Positions 3,856 through 41,742 of a stretch of 64,000 nt of DNA are shown here, in pieces. The notes under the pieces were generated by a model. That model worked only from the letters and a program-made list of their open reading frames with translations. It was not told the DNA's origin and did no database searches. Made by a program: the position numbers and the translations under genes. The DNA is from an uncultured Bacteroides sp. (lineage in GTDB: Bacteria; Bacillota; Clostridia; Lachnospirales; Lachnospiraceae): contig CAMECH010000009.1 in NCBI GenBank assembly GCA_945913015.1, positions 1 through 64,000 on the forward strand, written 5' to 3'. Each line of letters starts with the position of its first letter. Position 1 is the first letter of the stretch.

Positions 3856-6285
3856 CTATTTAACGGCAACTACTGTTATCTTTGTCGATGCGTATTCTTC
3901 ACCGCAGTACATGGCTATTTCATTCATTCCCCAATCGTGTGCCGATGCCTTAAATATACCTGTGTCCGGATTATATTCATAATCTATTATAAAGCGGTTT
4001 CCGCTACTGCTCAGCCACGTATAATCTAACTGGCAATAAACCTGCTTATATCCTTTACCGACATTGTATTCGATTGTATTCATCCATGTCTGCCCTTCCG
4101 AACGCAAACTATATAAGTCTATATTCTCTACTTTACAGGTTAATTTTCCATCGCTGTACCCTTCTGAATATCCATTGGAGTAACCGGTACTGTTCCCATC
4201 CGAATAGCCGCTTTTATAACTTACGGAAGCTTTATTACACCTTTCGTCCGCACTTATAATTCCCTCATTGTATTTACTGTCTGCAACTTTACCGATACCA
4301 TCTGCTAAACTCTGAAATGATGCATTACTGTCTGCATTAACGCCAGCTTGGTTTAATGCATCTGCAAGCTTTCTTTTTCCCTCACTGGCATATTGAAAAA
4401 CCTCATTGATTGCTGATACAATATTGCTTTTTTCATTGGTCAGCAGTGAATCAAGACTTCCAAATAATTTTTCCAATTCACTCAGACTCTCTTTTAATGT
4501 GCCGTTATCCAAATCCACTTTCTGCTGCAAACCATCAAGGCTGTTTTTTAATGCTCCGTTATCCAAATCCACTTTCTGCTGCAAGCCATCAAGACTGCTT
4601 TTTAATGCTCCGTTATCCAAATCCACTTTCTGCTGCAAACCATCAAGACTGGTTTTGTATGTACTATCATTTATATCTATTTGTTCCTGTAATCCGTCCG
4701 TCAACTGACTCAGTTCACTTATCTGCCTGTCATGTCTTTCATCTCCTGAAGCAATTTCCTCTTTAAGTTTTGCTGAAGACACATCCAGTTCATTCTGCAA
4801 TAATTCATATTTCTCCTGAAATATATTATTAAGCTCTATATACTCCCGTTCAATCTCACTAAGCCTATTTACGTTTTCTAATATTGAAGCCGCAAGTTGT
4901 GCCGTACTGTCATTATTTTCCCTTTTCTCCCGGTCTATCAGTTCCCGCAGCTCACTTTCCAATAAATCCATCGATATTTCTGATGCTTTATCCGCATTTA
5001 ATTGCGCACATATTTCTTTTAGCTCTGCAATTTCAGAATTATTTTTCACATCATTTCCGGAACTTTCATCTGACAATTTCTGAATAAGCTGCTCCAGTCC
5101 TTCTTTAAGTTTAGTTATATTGGCTTCAGTCTCTTTGTCAAGTTCTTCAAAGCTGTGCCGTGTTTTATCCTCAAGAGCTTCGACATATGTATTCAGTAAA
5201 GAGATTCTTTCCTTCTCCTGTTCTAATTCCAGAATTTTAGAATCCACTCTTTTCTGTTCATTCTGCAGGCTGGTTATAAAAGCATCCATCTCATCAATTC
5301 TATCGTTATAATACTGTATTATTCTGCTAAATTCAGAACCAATATCAGTCGCCCACTGTTCCAGTATAACTTCGATTTCCTCTTCTGTAACCATTGATAC
5401 TTCTGATGAATTATATTCATCATCAAAAATGTCTTGGCATTCAGTTAATATTTCCTGAATTCCTGCATATGGCAAACTTTCCTGATTCCCCACTTCTGCT
5501 ATAATCATCCTGAGTACATCTTCATCCGTTACAGATAACTTACGCTCAAAAACAATTTCTTCAACATGTTCTCTGATTGCAGTTTCAAATGCATCTTTCA
5601 CATATGATGTAAGCTCTTCTTCCGATATAGTACTATTACCCTGGTAAATCTGATTTTCAAAATCTTCCAGACTGTCAAGCATCCAGTCCACAAGCTTTTC
5701 TCTGTCCTCTTCCCTTAACGCGAAATTATATGTTAATAGTGTTTCAGCGTCTGCAATTTTTTCATACAACGTCTGAAAATCCCCATTATCTTCACCCTGC
5801 ATCACACCATATTCGATAAGTTTTGTGATAAGAATTTTCTGTTGTTCTTCCGTCAGCATCTCAGACACTTTTATTACATCATCGACAGTGATTTCGTCAC
5901 TCACTGCATCAATGCAATATTCCCCTACCAAATCCTTCAGACTTGTCATAGATAAACCGTTATCGTTATTATTATCGCCTATGATGCTGTTATCAGTTCT
6001 GCTCCTTCCGCCTTCTGCGGATGTACTTATCCCGTCAGATTCCTGTTCGTTATTTTGAGTCACCTCACCGGGCGCAACAGTTTCAGTTGAATATTCACCT
6101 TCTTTACTCTGTGCGCCCTGCACCTGCCATGGTCTGATAATATAACCTGCTGCGCCAAAGACAACCGCCGCTGCTGCAATCAGCCATATTGTTACCAGTC
6201 TCTTTTTAAATCTCTTCATACTCAATAAACTCCCCTCCTTTTTATTTGTGAGGGAAATTATATCAGATGACGCCTCAGTTTTCAA
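3856..6285 (-). CDS. membrane-anchored coiled-coil protein with internal 18-aa tandem repeats
   Basis: N-terminal TM (VTIWLIAAAAVVFGAAGYII), long Glu/Lys/Gln-rich coiled coil, SLDGLQQKVDLDNGALK repeats, GYSDG/GYSNG C-terminal motif. Confidence 0.75.
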   Translation of the reverse strand: MKTEASSDIISLTNKKEGSLLSMKRFKKRLVTIWLIAAAAVVFGAAGYIIRPWQVQGAQSKEGEYSTETVAPGEVTQNNEQESDGISTSAEGGRSRTDNSIIGDNNNDNGLSMTSLKDLVGEYCIDAVSDEITVDDVIKVSEMLTEEQQKILITKLIEYGVMQGEDNGDFQTLYEKIADAETLLTYNFALREEDREKLVDWMLDSLEDFENQIYQGNSTISEEELTSYVKDAFETAIREHVEEIVFERKLSVTDEDVLRMIIAEVGNQESLPYAGIQEILTECQDIFDDEYNSSEVSMVTEEEIEVILEQWATDIGSEFSRIIQYYNDRIDEMDAFITSLQNEQKRVDSKILELEQEKERISLLNTYVEALEDKTRHSFEELDKETEANITKLKEGLEQLIQKLSDESSGNDVKNNSEIAELKEICAQLNADKASEISMDLLESELRELIDREKRENNDSTAQLAASILENVNRLSEIEREYIELNNIFQEKYELLQNELDVSSAKLKEEIASGDERHDRQISELSQLTDGLQEQIDINDSTYKTSLDGLQQKVDLDNGALKSSLDGLQQKVDLDNGALKNSLDGLQQKVDLDNGTLKESLSELEKLFGSLDSLLTNEKSNIVSAINEVFQYASEGKRKLADALNQAGVNADSNASFQSLADGIGKVADSKYNEGIISADERCNKASVSYKSGYSDGNSTGYSNGYSEGYSDGKLTCKVENIDLYSLRSEGQTWMNTIEYNVGKGYKQVYCQLDYTWLSSSGNRFIIDYEYNPDTGIFKASAHDWGMNEIAMYCGEEYASTKITVVAVK
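4502..4663. repeat. three tandem 54-bp units (in-frame 18-aa repeat)
   Basis: ccgttatccaaatccactttctgctgcaarccatcaagrctg... at 4502, 4556 and 4610. Confidence 0.95.
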
Positions 6286-6343: not shown

Positions 6344-6378
6344 AAAAATATGCCATCGGGAATATTTTTCATACTGAT
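6344..6378. repeat. partial copy of the hairpin repeat at 41367-41401, overlapping the flavodoxin stop codon
   Basis: aaaaatatgccatcgggaatatttttcatactgat matches aaaaatatgccatcgggcatatttttcacactaat with 3 mismatches in 35 nt. Confidence 0.85.
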
Positions 6379-6902
6379 CTGATATACCCGACAATTGGTT
6401 CAATAAACTTCCTGTCGGCAATATCGTAAGAATGAGCAAGCATTTCTCCCATTTCCTTTTCCTGCTCAGTTGCATTCTTTTTATTTCGTATCATGGAAAC
6501 AAATGCTTTTATAAGCAGTCTTGACGGCAGCTTCATATTCTCATAAGAGAGTCCGCCCTGGCAATAAAATGCTTTTGCATACTTTTTCTCCTCGTCTGTT
6601 AATGCATTATTAAGTACAGTTTCAACATCATGACTTTGATTAGGGCTTGCACCAACGCAGAAAAGCACCAGTTTCTTTCCTTTCCAGCATGGAATATTTT
6701 GGGTAAACCATTTACTGTTTACTATCTTTCCGCCCATTGCCCAGCCTCCGTAAATAATTACGTCGGCATCAGCAAAATAATTATCACTCTTCTTTTTTGC
6801 ATCGGCTATTGTAACGACATCCGCATTAAGTTCTTCTGATAACCAGTCAACATATCTTTTTGTAAATCCTGTTTGTGATGAATATACTATAATTGTTTTC
6901 AT
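6369..6902 (-). CDS. flavodoxin-domain protein
   Basis: MKTIIVYSSQTGFTKRYVDWLSEEL P-loop for FMN phosphate; flavodoxin-like pattern. Confidence 0.8.
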   Translation of the reverse strand: MKTIIVYSSQTGFTKRYVDWLSEELNADVVTIADAKKKSDNYFADADVIIYGGWAMGGKIVNSKWFTQNIPCWKGKKLVLFCVGASPNQSHDVETVLNNALTDEEKKYAKAFYCQGGLSYENMKLPSRLLIKAFVSMIRNKKNATEQEKEMGEMLAHSYDIADRKFIEPIVGYIRSV

Positions 6903-12316: not shown

Positions 12317-13744
12317 TTACTGTACTCCGTATACAGCGTCATCCTCATAAATTTCCTTCTCAGGAAGATGAATTTTAACATTTTTCATTTTTATATTCCG
12401 GGCATTTTTAACCACACATCCTGTAAGTGCTGTAATCTCAGCATTTTCAAGCGTTATATCATATACCGTAGGCTTTCCTTTAGACGGCGGAAACTCAATT
12501 CCCTCCGCCTTGAAAGCCGTCTTTGCCCCAAGGCATGTGATATTTTTCATTGTAATATCCCTGAATACAGGAATATCATCATCACTCACATAGACATCCG
12601 CATCCTCTTTTTCATGCGACAGCTTATACAGGGAATATCCCATTGTAAATATAACTGCCTCCTGAACGATATCTGTCATTGTTATATCTTCAAGCAGAAT
12701 ATTTTCCACCACTCCGCCACGTCCAAGCTGACTCTTAAATCTTATTCCGACATCAGTTCCAAGAAATGTGCAATTCTTAACTGTAACATTTCTTACACCG
12801 CGCGACATCTCGCTTCCGACAACAAATCCGCCATGTGCATGCATTACAGTGCAGTCATGTATATATACATTTTCTGTCGGAACCGCTATTCTTCTTCCTA
12901 TCTCATTCTTTCCGGATTTCATGCATATACCGTCATCTCCGACGTCAAACTTTGTATTGCATATTTCAACGAACCGGCATGACTCCACATCAATTCCGTC
13001 TCCATTCTGCGCATGGTAAGGATTTCTTATCATCGCATTGCGGACCGTAAGGTTTGTACAAAGAAGAGGATGTACATTCCAGTTCGGTGAATTCTGCAGA
13101 GTGACTCCGTCAATCAGTACACGGTTGCATTTCACAAAATTAACCATAACAGGTCTGTAAAAATCATAAAACGGCTCTGCTTTTTTTAATGCGTCTTCAT
13201 CCTCACCAGACGGTTCTCCTGCCATACATCCTTCATAAGAAGTCTTTGTAGGAAACCACATACCGCCCTCACTTGTAGGAATGAGCGTATCCGGACTTGT
13301 TTCCAGCATATTGTTCCACTGTCGCTCCGTCACTTTAAACTTCTTGACCGGACGCCACAGCTGTCCGTTGCCGTCGATAGTTCCCTCACCTGTAATGGCA
13401 ATATTTTCTGCCCCGACAGCCATAATCGGTGAAACAGTCCTTATTCTTGGCTGCCCCTCATAATCACTGATAATCAGCGGATATTCCTCCTTATTCTTAT
13501 CAAACAGAAGTACTGCACCACTTTCAACATGTAAATCAACGCCCGACAGAAGCTTTACAGGTCCTGTAAGCCATAAACCTGCCGGTATAATCACATGACC
13601 TCCGCCATCAGAAGAACATGCCGCAATCGCATCATTAACAGCTTTAGTATTAGAAACCGCTCCGCCTGCCACGGCACCAAATTTCCTTATATCATATTCC
13701 GCATCCCTGAATACAGGTATTTCCACATTAAAATCAACAGACAT
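12317..13744 (-). CDS. glycoside hydrolase family 28 (polygalacturonase-like)
   Basis: Right-handed beta-helix motifs NSPNWNVHPLLC, NGDGIDVESC, VGDDGICMKSG, GHGG-like HAHGGFVVGSEMSRGVRNV. Confidence 0.92.
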   Translation of the reverse strand: MSVDFNVEIPVFRDAEYDIRKFGAVAGGAVSNTKAVNDAIAACSSDGGGHVIIPAGLWLTGPVKLLSGVDLHVESGAVLLFDKNKEEYPLIISDYEGQPRIRTVSPIMAVGAENIAITGEGTIDGNGQLWRPVKKFKVTERQWNNMLETSPDTLIPTSEGGMWFPTKTSYEGCMAGEPSGEDEDALKKAEPFYDFYRPVMVNFVKCNRVLIDGVTLQNSPNWNVHPLLCTNLTVRNAMIRNPYHAQNGDGIDVESCRFVEICNTKFDVGDDGICMKSGKNEIGRRIAVPTENVYIHDCTVMHAHGGFVVGSEMSRGVRNVTVKNCTFLGTDVGIRFKSQLGRGGVVENILLEDITMTDIVQEAVIFTMGYSLYKLSHEKEDADVYVSDDDIPVFRDITMKNITCLGAKTAFKAEGIEFPPSKGKPTVYDITLENAEITALTGCVVKNARNIKMKNVKIHLPEKEIYEDDAVYGVQ

Positions 13745-13774
13745 TTTACACTAATCTCCATTCACATGTATTTT

Positions 13775-28057: not shown

Positions 28058-28100
28058 TCATCTTAATTGAACAAATTAAATTAATTGCGCACAGCGCGGA

Positions 28101-28373
28101 ATGGAGAATAACATGGAAAACATCCCGAATATTGACCCTAAAAAAATGGCTCTTATTAACGAATTTAAAAAAATGGCTGCCGGAAAAAGCAGTTCGGAAA
28201 TGCTGCCGCTTCTGCTTGCAATATCGCGTAAATCCCAGTCGATGGGACTGAACTTTACAAGCGAAGAGACCAGAATCATCATTGATTCCATGATGTCTGA
28301 AGCCTCTCCTGCACAAAAGCAGCAGATTAACATGATGTTAAGCCTTATGAATCAATCGCATCCAAATAAATAG
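28101..28373 (+). CDS. hypothetical Met-rich protein, 90 aa
   Basis: 43 nt after the 207-aa ORF, same strand; Met-rich helical composition; overlaps the convergent DUF1294 gene. Confidence 0.65.
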   Translation: MENNMENIPNIDPKKMALINEFKKMAAGKSSSEMLPLLLAISRKSQSMGLNFTSEETRIIIDSMMSEASPAQKQQINMMLSLMNQSHPNK

Positions 28374-38853: not shown

Positions 38854-41253
38854 TTAATTTTCCCAAAAGCGCCTTGCCAGTTCCCCTGCCTGAAAAAGAG
38901 CCGTTTCCTTATAATTATTCCATTCTCTCGGAAAAATGCTTCTGTATTCATTCTTCAGGAATCGTTCATCAAGCAGCGCAATTATGCCTCTGTCTTTTTC
39001 AGTCCTGATTACCCTGCCGGCAGCCTGCATGACTTTATTCATCCCCGGATACACATATGCATAGTCAAATCCGTTCTTGCCCGTTTCGTCAAAATATGTC
39101 TGCAGTATTTTCTGCTCCGTGCACACCATAGGAAGTCCCGCACCTACGATAATCGCACCGATGAGCTGCTCATTCTTAAGGTCGATTCCTTCCGAGAATA
39201 TTCCTCCCATCACGCAGAACCCTGTAACATGCTCCCCTTCTGCACCGTCTGCAAATCTTGCAAGGAATTCCTCTCTTTGCACCTCATTCATTGACATATC
39301 CTGACAGATTATATTCCGGGCGCACTCTTCATTCAGCTCTTTACTTTCAAGCATTTTGCAGATAACTTCGTAAACAGACTGCATAAAGCCGTATGACGGA
39401 AAAAACACCATATAATTTCCGGCTCTGGCGCCCGTAACCTCAAATATATATTTTGCGATTTTTTTATACTCTGCCTCATTACGCCTTGTATATCTGCTGC
39501 TGACATCACGTCCTATAAGTATCTCACGGTTATTGACATCAAACGATGAATGTGCATACACGGCAATCTCATCCGGATTACCGGTAAGCATTTCCTTAAA
39601 ATACTGTACGGGCAGAAGCGTTGCCGAGAAAAATATTGTCGATATTCCCTGCTCTGTACACATTTTCAGGTTATCTGACGGGTCCACGCAGAAAAGGCGC
39701 AGATAAAAATTACCATCCCTGTCATGTTCTGTATATATAACATATTTTTCAGTCAGCAAATCATGCATATTAAGAAAATGTCTGATTTTCAGAAAGAACT
39801 CCATTATCCTCTCAGCATGTTCAAACTTTTTGTTCCTGTCCATGAATTTCTGTATAAGTGAATACACTCTTTCAAGGTGCATGGAAAATCCCGACACGCC
39901 CGTAAGCACCTGATAGTCCTCGCACTCACGCTTAAATCCAAGCATATCCTTATTACATCTTTCGAGTGCCGCATAAAGCTTCTTGTCAATATCCTTAACC
40001 AGCTTTTTTACCGCAAGAAAGTCCTCTTTTACAAGCGTTGCGCTGTACATTGAGCGGCCTCTGTCAACGAGGTTGTGAGCCTCATCAACAAGGAATAAAA
40101 AGCTCCCTTTACTGCCGTCTGCAAAAAATCTTTTCAATCTCACATTCGGGTCAAATACATAATTATAGTCGCATATAATTCCGTCACACCACGTTGATAT
40201 GTCGAGTGACAGTTCAAACGGGCACACCTCATGTTTTTTTGCATACTCAAGCACAACATCCCTGCTGATTGCCGTTTCATGTGTAATCACATCATAGACA
40301 GCATCATTAACACGGTCAAAGTGCCCTTTTGCGTAAGGACATCCGTCAGGATTGCAGTCGCGTTCATCAAGAATACATATTTTGTCGCGTGCCGTAAGTG
40401 TAACCGTCCTGAAATGAAGTCCGTTGTTCCTTAAAATTCCATAAGTTTCTTCCGCTACTGTCCTTGTAATCGTCTTTGCCGTAAGGTAAAAAATTTTATC
40501 AGCAATCCCTTCCCCCACCGCCATGACAGCCGGATATATTGTTGATATAGTCTTGCCTGTTCCGGTAGGTGCCTGAATATACAGATTTTTGCCTGCCTGA
40601 CAGCTTCTGTATACACTCGCCGCAAGCTCCTTCTGCCCTTTTCTGTACTGAAATGGGAATTTAAGCCCCTTGATTGAATCTGTACGTATCATCTGCTGTT
40701 CAAATACGAAGTCCGTCCATTTTGAAAAACTGCCTATAAGCTCAACAAACCAGTCCCCAAGCTCTTCCATAAGAAATTCTTCATAGAAATATTTGATTTT
40801 TTCATCATCAATACTGCAGTATGTCATCCTGATCCTTATACGCTCAAGGCGTTCCCGAGTTCCGTATATATATGCATAGCACATGGCCTGCGCCTTATGG
40901 ACATACACAGGCTCTTCTATCCTGTTCACATTCCCCGTGACTGTTTTAATCTCATCAATGCATACATCCGGGTTATCTTCGCTTCCTTCTGTAATTATTC
41001 CGTCAGCCCGTCCTTCAAGCGTAATCGTATAAGAACATTCCTTTTCTACCAGCACATCTGCCTTGAGTGCAACCTCCGCCGCATATTCCGAGCCCATTCT
41101 TTTTTGTATTGCGCGGTGTATCCTTGCACCTTCCTGCATCCTTGCGACATCAGATGAAGAGCTGACACGGTTATCTATATCACCGCTGCTGTATATAAAT
41201 TCAACAAGATTTCTCACCGAAATCCTGATAGTCCGGTCCTTAATTATATACAT
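38854..41253 (-). CDS. XPD/DinG-type Fe-S helicase with N-terminal PD-(D/E)XK nuclease-like domain
   Basis: APTGTGKTIST, VDEAHN; CxnC Fe-S region CILDERDCNPDGCPYA...CPFEL; N-terminal GRADGI...CIDEIKT. ORF track start at 41379 reads through a repeat; MYIIKDRTIRI chosen as start. Confidence 0.88.
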   Translation of the reverse strand: MYIIKDRTIRISVRNLVEFIYSSGDIDNRVSSSSDVARMQEGARIHRAIQKRMGSEYAAEVALKADVLVEKECSYTITLEGRADGIITEGSEDNPDVCIDEIKTVTGNVNRIEEPVYVHKAQAMCYAYIYGTRERLERIRIRMTYCSIDDEKIKYFYEEFLMEELGDWFVELIGSFSKWTDFVFEQQMIRTDSIKGLKFPFQYRKGQKELAASVYRSCQAGKNLYIQAPTGTGKTISTIYPAVMAVGEGIADKIFYLTAKTITRTVAEETYGILRNNGLHFRTVTLTARDKICILDERDCNPDGCPYAKGHFDRVNDAVYDVITHETAISRDVVLEYAKKHEVCPFELSLDISTWCDGIICDYNYVFDPNVRLKRFFADGSKGSFLFLVDEAHNLVDRGRSMYSATLVKEDFLAVKKLVKDIDKKLYAALERCNKDMLGFKRECEDYQVLTGVSGFSMHLERVYSLIQKFMDRNKKFEHAERIMEFFLKIRHFLNMHDLLTEKYVIYTEHDRDGNFYLRLFCVDPSDNLKMCTEQGISTIFFSATLLPVQYFKEMLTGNPDEIAVYAHSSFDVNNREILIGRDVSSRYTRRNEAEYKKIAKYIFEVTGARAGNYMVFFPSYGFMQSVYEVICKMLESKELNEECARNIICQDMSMNEVQREEFLARFADGAEGEHVTGFCVMGGIFSEGIDLKNEQLIGAIIVGAGLPMVCTEQKILQTYFDETGKNGFDYAYVYPGMNKVMQAAGRVIRTEKDRGIIALLDERFLKNEYRSIFPREWNNYKETALFQAGELARRFWEN

Positions 41254-41415
41254 ACCAATCCCCATTCCGCAGACGCTTTGGCGTCGGAGGAATCGCGAGC
41301 CAAATATCAGATTTGGCTCTGCGATAATGGCTTGTTTGTGGCGCCTGCGGCACAAACAGCCGTGTGAAAAATATGCCATCGGGCATATTTTTCACACTAA
41401 TCTCCATTCCGCAGA
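41254..41415. repeat. multi-hairpin intergenic repeat element flanked by direct repeats of AC(C/T)AATC(C/T)CCATTCCGCAGA
   Basis: Four stem-loops: 41272-41285, 41293-41324, 41333-41358, 41362-41397 (perfect 16-bp stem, ATCG loop). Confidence 0.88.
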
Positions 41416-41417
41416 TA

Positions 41418-41711
41418 CTAATATTCTTTCGGTTCCCACTCCCTTTTGGCAAACTGCTCATTAAGCCACTGTATTGCCGCAAGCCTGCCTTCCTCTGAAG
41501 CTTCAAACTCAGACGATATTTTGTCTTCGTCCGGCACATACGGATATGCATAAGGCCCTGCCCACGCACAGACATTCAGCTTAAAATCGGGCTTTTCGCC
41601 GGTGCGCCATATCCTGTAACGCATATTTTCAAACGCTCCCGTGTAAATCCCCTTATATGCAAAAAAATTGTACGGTAAAATATCCTTATCCTCTATCATG
41701 CTGATTATCAT
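41418..41711 (-). CDS. conserved hypothetical protein, 97 aa
   Basis: Clean ORF in tight cluster; no family recognised. Confidence 0.65.
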   Translation of the reverse strand: MIISMIEDKDILPYNFFAYKGIYTGAFENMRYRIWRTGEKPDFKLNVCAWAGPYAYPYVPDEDKISSEFEASEEGRLAAIQWLNEQFAKREWEPKEY

Positions 41712-41742
41712 CCCTTTTCACACTAATTTCCATTCCGCAACG

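Follow-up and report, generated by a model that had tools for sequence, protein, structure and literature searches.

REP sequences and REPINs with RAYT (Y1) transposases are small, dispersed, intergenic and non-autonomous imperfect palindromes, and in all these respects they resemble the element described here; however, we know of no fixed link between REPs and start codons and of none that supplies a Shine-Dalgarno (SD) sequence, and no Y1 transposase (PF01797) was matched in the genome that hosts our element (G000, 99.8% complete) or in the genomes G001 (single-contig), G002, G008 and G014. MITEs such as the Correia elements are likewise short, non-coding and multicopy, with duplicated flanks and presence/absence polymorphism, whereas our element lacks terminal inverted repeats and has asymmetric ends, a fixed orientation at the SD and a conserved pseudoknot. 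Rickettsia palindromic elements (RPEs) insert in frame within open reading frames and are, like our element, palindromic repeats tolerated at gene-disrupting positions, but the element inserts at the SD and is non-coding. In Beggiatoaceae, TAACTGA repeats lie a few nucleotides upstream of the start codons of functionally unrelated genes (PMC4679880); these are seven-base direct repeats that supply no SD, in contrast to a structured element of ~140 nt. What sets the element apart from REPs, MITEs and RPEs is its SD-specific, oriented insertion, the replacement SD that it carries and a covarying pseudoknot. A literature search, with most subscription journals outside its coverage, found no description of it, and no Rfam family scored above the gathering threshold for 16 loci, namely the window copy and 15 others; the sole weak similarity of the window copy was to TD-2 RNA (RF03162; 22.8 bits against a gathering threshold of 48.7, E = 0.75), absent in the 15 other loci.

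In the window, that is, the whole 64,000-nt stretch of DNA analysed, a copy of this dispersed element occupies positions 41249-41415 on the minus strand. The first-pass annotation had described here, between two genes, four consecutive hairpins including a perfect 16-bp stem, with near-identical repeats at both ends, and its coordinates and features were all correct. The predicted fold has -71.4 kcal/mol compared with -45.7 +/- 3.6 for shuffled sequences (z = -7.1), the end repeats, at 41251-41273 and 41393-41415, share 87% identity, and a 21-mer of the end-repeat motif occurs four times in the window against 0.00 expected. From 5' to 3' on this strand, the order is TCTGCGGAATGGAGATTA, P1, P2, P3, P4, the tail CGTCTGCGG and AATGGGGATTGGT-ATG, where ATG is the helicase start. 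The features are as follows:

41716-41739, minus strand: solo SD motif GGAATGGAAATTAGTGTGAAAA of the same family, without hairpins, preceding the gene 41418-41711
41418-41711, minus strand: upstream co-directional gene (97 aa); in the empty sites of G001 and G002 its orthologue overlaps the start of the helicase
41398-41415, minus strand: left direct repeat TCTGCGGAATGGAGATTA, with the old SD-spacer copy GGAGATTA at 41398-41405; it resembles the 3' tail of an earlier insertion
41382-41397, minus strand: P1 5' arm GTGTGAAAAATATGCC, the element 5' end, with GTG as a decoy start, 6 nt 3' of GGAG
41378-41381, minus strand: P1 loop CGAT, between GTGTGAAAAATATGCC and GGCATATTTTTCACAC
41362-41377, minus strand: P1 3' arm GGCATATTTTTCACAC (covariation, fold)
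41362-41397, minus strand: whole P1, a perfect 16 bp
41329-41361, minus strand: P2 hairpin, arms 41351-41361 and 41329-41340 (covariation)
41342-41350, minus strand: P2 loop CCGCAGGCG, first pseudoknot strand (conserved)
41292-41325, minus strand: P3 hairpin (covariation)
41272-41285, minus strand: P4 hairpin GACGCCAAAGCGTC, whose 3' arm overlaps a pseudoknot strand (covariation)
41267-41275, minus strand: tail CGTCTGCGG, second pseudoknot strand, 3 nt upstream of the SD GGGG
41256-41263, minus strand: right SD-spacer GGGGATTG, the helicase SD (GGGG at 41260-41263) and counterpart of the left-end GGAGATTA
41251-41253, minus strand: helicase start codon ATG, exactly 6 nt 3' of GGGG
38854-41253, minus strand: downstream gene, a Rad3/DinG-like helicase (799 aa; DEAD_2, Helicase_C_2)

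The element thus supplies the ribosome-binding site of the helicase, as had been supposed. Frames open through the element, to which the same annotation pointed, are present but incidental, and the length of the GTG frame differs by copy; the longest mechanical ORF (38854-41379, 841 aa) spuriously enters the element by 42 codons beyond the helicase coding sequence (38854-41253, start ATG at 41253). An annotation pipeline could take this false 841-aa helicase start. The alternative between a mobile or palindromic element and a structured RNA leader dissolved, each partly holding as part of one thing: the element is dispersed, polymorphic among related genomes and non-coding, and it always forms a leader with an SD. 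The annotation had missed three points: the flanking direct repeats represent the ribosome-binding site, insertion targets the SD specifically and a pseudoknot is present.

A DNA search located the element at 40 places in the host genome (2.38 Mb), with identities of up to 98%, and it is thus multicopy, as the mobile-element reading called for. This copy number is a lower bound because the repeat breaks the assembly, two draft contigs (C20 and C37, bases 1-63) both starting within the element. Among 60 relatives searched in the same way, most had no match, and the best matches, multicopy in each case, came from other genera and from two same-genus genomes (up to 85%). Of 397 Lachnospiraceae genomes sampled with a covariance model built from 43 copies, 51 carry the element (46 of 334 genera), nearly always at full length and in many cases with at least seven scored matches; in the whole-class sample, two weak matches only fell outside this family, and G043, from another family of the same order, holds two copies. 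The copy L320 in G016 matches in sequence the locus L139 of Lachnospira sp. UBA2821. Shortened copies have mostly kept the 3' end and lost 5' parts, mini copies in which P1 is joined to the tail also occur, and a type B of 87 nt has a different body but has P1, tail and position in common with type A. In a further Lachnospiraceae bacterium, a leader similar to type B (L133:11180-11300) has a loop GCGCTGC complementary to its tail GCAGCGC. At one orthologous locus in two species (L304/L313), a type A and a type B body stand behind the same P1 sequence, which suggests that element bodies are exchanged by recombination. The window also contains an isolated P1-like hairpin remnant, GTATGAAAAATATTCCCGATGGCATATTTTT, at 6344-6380 (minus strand) with the rest of the element absent, and a tandem repeat of three copies of a 54-nt unit at 4484-4698.

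When copies are aligned with their flanks, the element 3' end is an SD plus spacer, GGAATGGRGATTAGT, that abuts the start codon of an unrelated downstream gene. Of 66 copies from six genomes, 59 have at this end a start codon that opens 40 codons or more, RTG follows GGRG at exactly 6 nt in 37/45 copies, the start offset is identical in 20 of 24 loci from other, divergent genera, and the orientation to the start codon is single in essentially all copies. On the other side, 35 of 80 copies have a co-directional ORF (at least 100 codons) that ends no more than 40 nt away, and 60 of 80 have one ending within 400 nt, which places the element mostly within operons. The downstream genes, named from our own reading of their N-termini, are unrelated and many are housekeeping genes, including those for the helicase, 6-phosphofructokinase (pfkA), RNase H (rnhA), ArgC (argC), RpiB (rpiB) and ribosomal protein L9 (rplI). 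The same helicase gene also follows an insertion of independent origin in Lachnospira sp. UBA2821, a member of another genus.

Comparison of orthologous loci, which the first-pass annotation had suggested as a check for empty sites, revealed that the element is absent from the window site in two same-genus genomes: the window locus (L001) is filled, whereas in G001 and G002 (L232/L233) the site is empty and the orthologous gene pair overlaps (...GAACATTAAGTATG). Between these two relatives, L203 of G001 is filled and L244 of G002 empty, the native SD context CAGGAGGAAGATATTATG being replaced by CAGGAGGATA-element-GGAGGATATTATG with GGAGGATA on either side, and L307 of G001 is empty (GGGAAAGGAGAATAGTATGG) whereas L300 of G002 consists of two tandem elements, with GGAGAATA both where they meet and at the right-hand junction. 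L305 and L308 form a clean filled/solo pair with GGAGATTA; L298 and L309 are both filled, and the doubled SD consists of two GGAGGATTA copies in one genome and of two GGAGGACTA copies in the second. Within genomes, left and right SD-spacers share at least 7 nt exactly in 25/59 copies compared with 11.2 after shuffling (maximum 19 in 5000 shuffles). They are unequal in many copies, young ones included (for example, GGAGGATA versus GGAGATTA in L003), so that a fixed staggered-cut duplication is not clean, and the left-right match appears to reflect a target-site duplication at the SD whose two copies were subsequently obscured by sequence change and recombination. In some empty sites (L242, L308) the GGAATGGAG motif is already in place, and these could be deletions.

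Across 43 type A copies, 97.0% of the cells in P1-P4 are paired, compared with 33-43% in slid controls, and 16 pairs are changed on both sides, with 100 such cells against 26 in shuffled data; the covariation that had been proposed as a check is thus found in the hairpins, and also, across subfamilies, in a loop-tail pairing. This loop-tail pairing joins the P2 loop, through 8-9 complementary nt, to the tail immediately upstream of the SD. In 22 subfamily representatives, with tails delimited by hand, 8.55 of 9 positions pair compared with 6.15 +/- 0.32 for shuffled tails, and several positions show three pair types, with loop/tail combinations such as CCGCAGACG/CGTCTGCGG, CCGGAGCGT/ACGCTCCGG, CCGAAGCGT/ACGCTTCGG and TCTGAGCGA/TCGCTCAGA; within the type A alignment alone the variation is one-sided and uninformative, the signal existing across subfamilies only. 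This conserved pairing argues for a function of the single strand, most simply as RNA, with single-stranded DNA during transfer as the alternative. Because one pseudoknot strand overlaps the P4 3' arm, P4 and the pseudoknot are mutually exclusive. A 9-bp helix in a 10-nt loop may be sterically strained, and therefore fewer pairs may form.

The motif AATGGRGATTAGTRTG (at most one mismatch) is found at 90 sites in the window genome, at 56 in G016 and at 44 and 45 in the two congeners of the window genome. Nearly all genomes that lack multicopy elements have few such sites or none (0-5), the exceptions being G010 (20) and G046 (7); reversed controls were near zero. Solo motifs without hairpins also adjoin start codons of other genes in the window, at 1863-1883, 13744-13763 and 305-320 on the minus strand and at 28095-28110 on the plus strand. 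The solo sites look like scars, truncated copies or element-linked targets. G010, with 20 solo motifs yet one short element match, may harbor a diverged element type missed by the covariance model.

Searches for a mobiliser or a carrier gave the following results. Among the copies retrieved, there was no long version bearing both element ends. The possibility of a derivative of a retroelement or group II intron was dropped, as no reverse transcriptase (RVT_1) was matched in G000, G001, G008 or G016. No plasmid match to the element was found. Three unannotated contigs labelled 'Bacteriophage sp.' match the element, and the two examined, L393 (MT838414.1) and L394 (MT837007.1), encode bacterial proteins (MBOAT-like acyltransferases and a Tex-like protein, in our reading of the ORFs) and look like host contigs; phage carriage is therefore unsupported.

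Taken together, the sequence is probably a non-autonomous, SD-targeting mobile element of ~130-145 nt that doubles as a pseudoknotted translation leader. It would have moved, as DNA or RNA, through some enzyme, entering the SD-start region in a single orientation, chiefly between co-directional operon genes, and duplicating ~8 nt of the SD-spacer (GGAGNNTA). The element's own SD would end up correctly spaced for the start codon of the invaded gene; translation would then begin from this SD and the insertion would be tolerated, while the displaced original SD would be left facing a decoy start codon at the element 5' end. The transcript is predicted to fold into P1-P4 and a pseudoknot of the P2 loop with the 9 nt preceding the SD; the fold may also tune translation, and a regulatory switch by the leader is possible. 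At the window locus, two overlapping, probably translationally coupled genes would have acquired separate initiation. As the element brings its own ribosome-binding site, the start of translation would be rewired and the genes left unbroken.

The strong covariation beside the SD would also suit a cis-regulatory RNA, a riboswitch- or thermosensor-like leader in which two alternative folds, P4 and the pseudoknot, would uncover or mask the SD across a regulon, the more so as the pseudoknot strand ends 3 nt upstream of the SD and overlaps the P4 3' arm, and CCTCC, complementary to an SD, precedes P4 in most type A copies. We regard this as rather unlikely: several families have lost CCTCC, the unrelated and often housekeeping target genes form no coherent set and therefore argue against a ligand-specific regulon, copies are near-identical inside one genome, site occupancy is polymorphic among related genomes, and the doubled SD would be left unexplained. 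If the element were instead a dispersed DNA palindrome of the REP, MITE or cruciform type, with hairpins serving transposition or chromosome functions only, its placement at starts would be incidental; the perfect P1 palindrome, the multiple copies and the duplicated flanks fit, but the single orientation to the start codon does not, nor does a covarying loop-tail pairing that a duplex cruciform would not need, the PF01797 search found no Y1/RAYT gene in the genome, and no terminal inverted repeats join the element ends, inverted repeats occurring only within the hairpins, all of which makes this reading improbable.

It seems unlikely, too, that the ends are a favoured native SD motif and that the bodies spread by recombination between pre-existing GGAATGGAGATTAGTATG sites and not by true transposition. 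The 90 solo sites, the bodies swapped at L304/L313 with P1 kept and the imperfect left-right match would agree with such a process; however, most relatives that lack the element have almost no solo motifs, which thus look element-derived, native empty sites without AATGG exist (L244, L307), and 16 bp is short for homologous exchange. A start codon correctly spaced from the left SD at the element 5' end in 63/68 copies could finally mean that the element encodes a conserved small peptide beginning with GTG-AAA-AAT, to which we give hardly any credence, since frame and length vary among copies of one genome (the GTG frame has 5, 7, 21, 29, 39 or 46 codons, overall 5 to ~50) and the translations have no Pfam match.

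For annotation, the element matters in that an automatic gene caller may run a protein on into it or choose a wrong start. More tentatively, it is conceivable that it represents a new class of bacterial mobile element, with site-specific integration at ribosome-binding sites (perhaps by recognition of SD-like DNA or mRNA), replacement of the host ribosome-binding site and two exclusive pseudoknotted-RNA folds that control initiation, acting as interchangeable initiation modules across a bacterial family. Small dispersed repeats are usually regarded as intergenic baggage, and one that targets ribosome-binding sites and brings a working substitute differs from this picture. If true, this would explain why insertions are tolerated before housekeeping genes, translational coupling would be breakable without loss of expression, and the family would possess a natural library of exchangeable 5' leaders.
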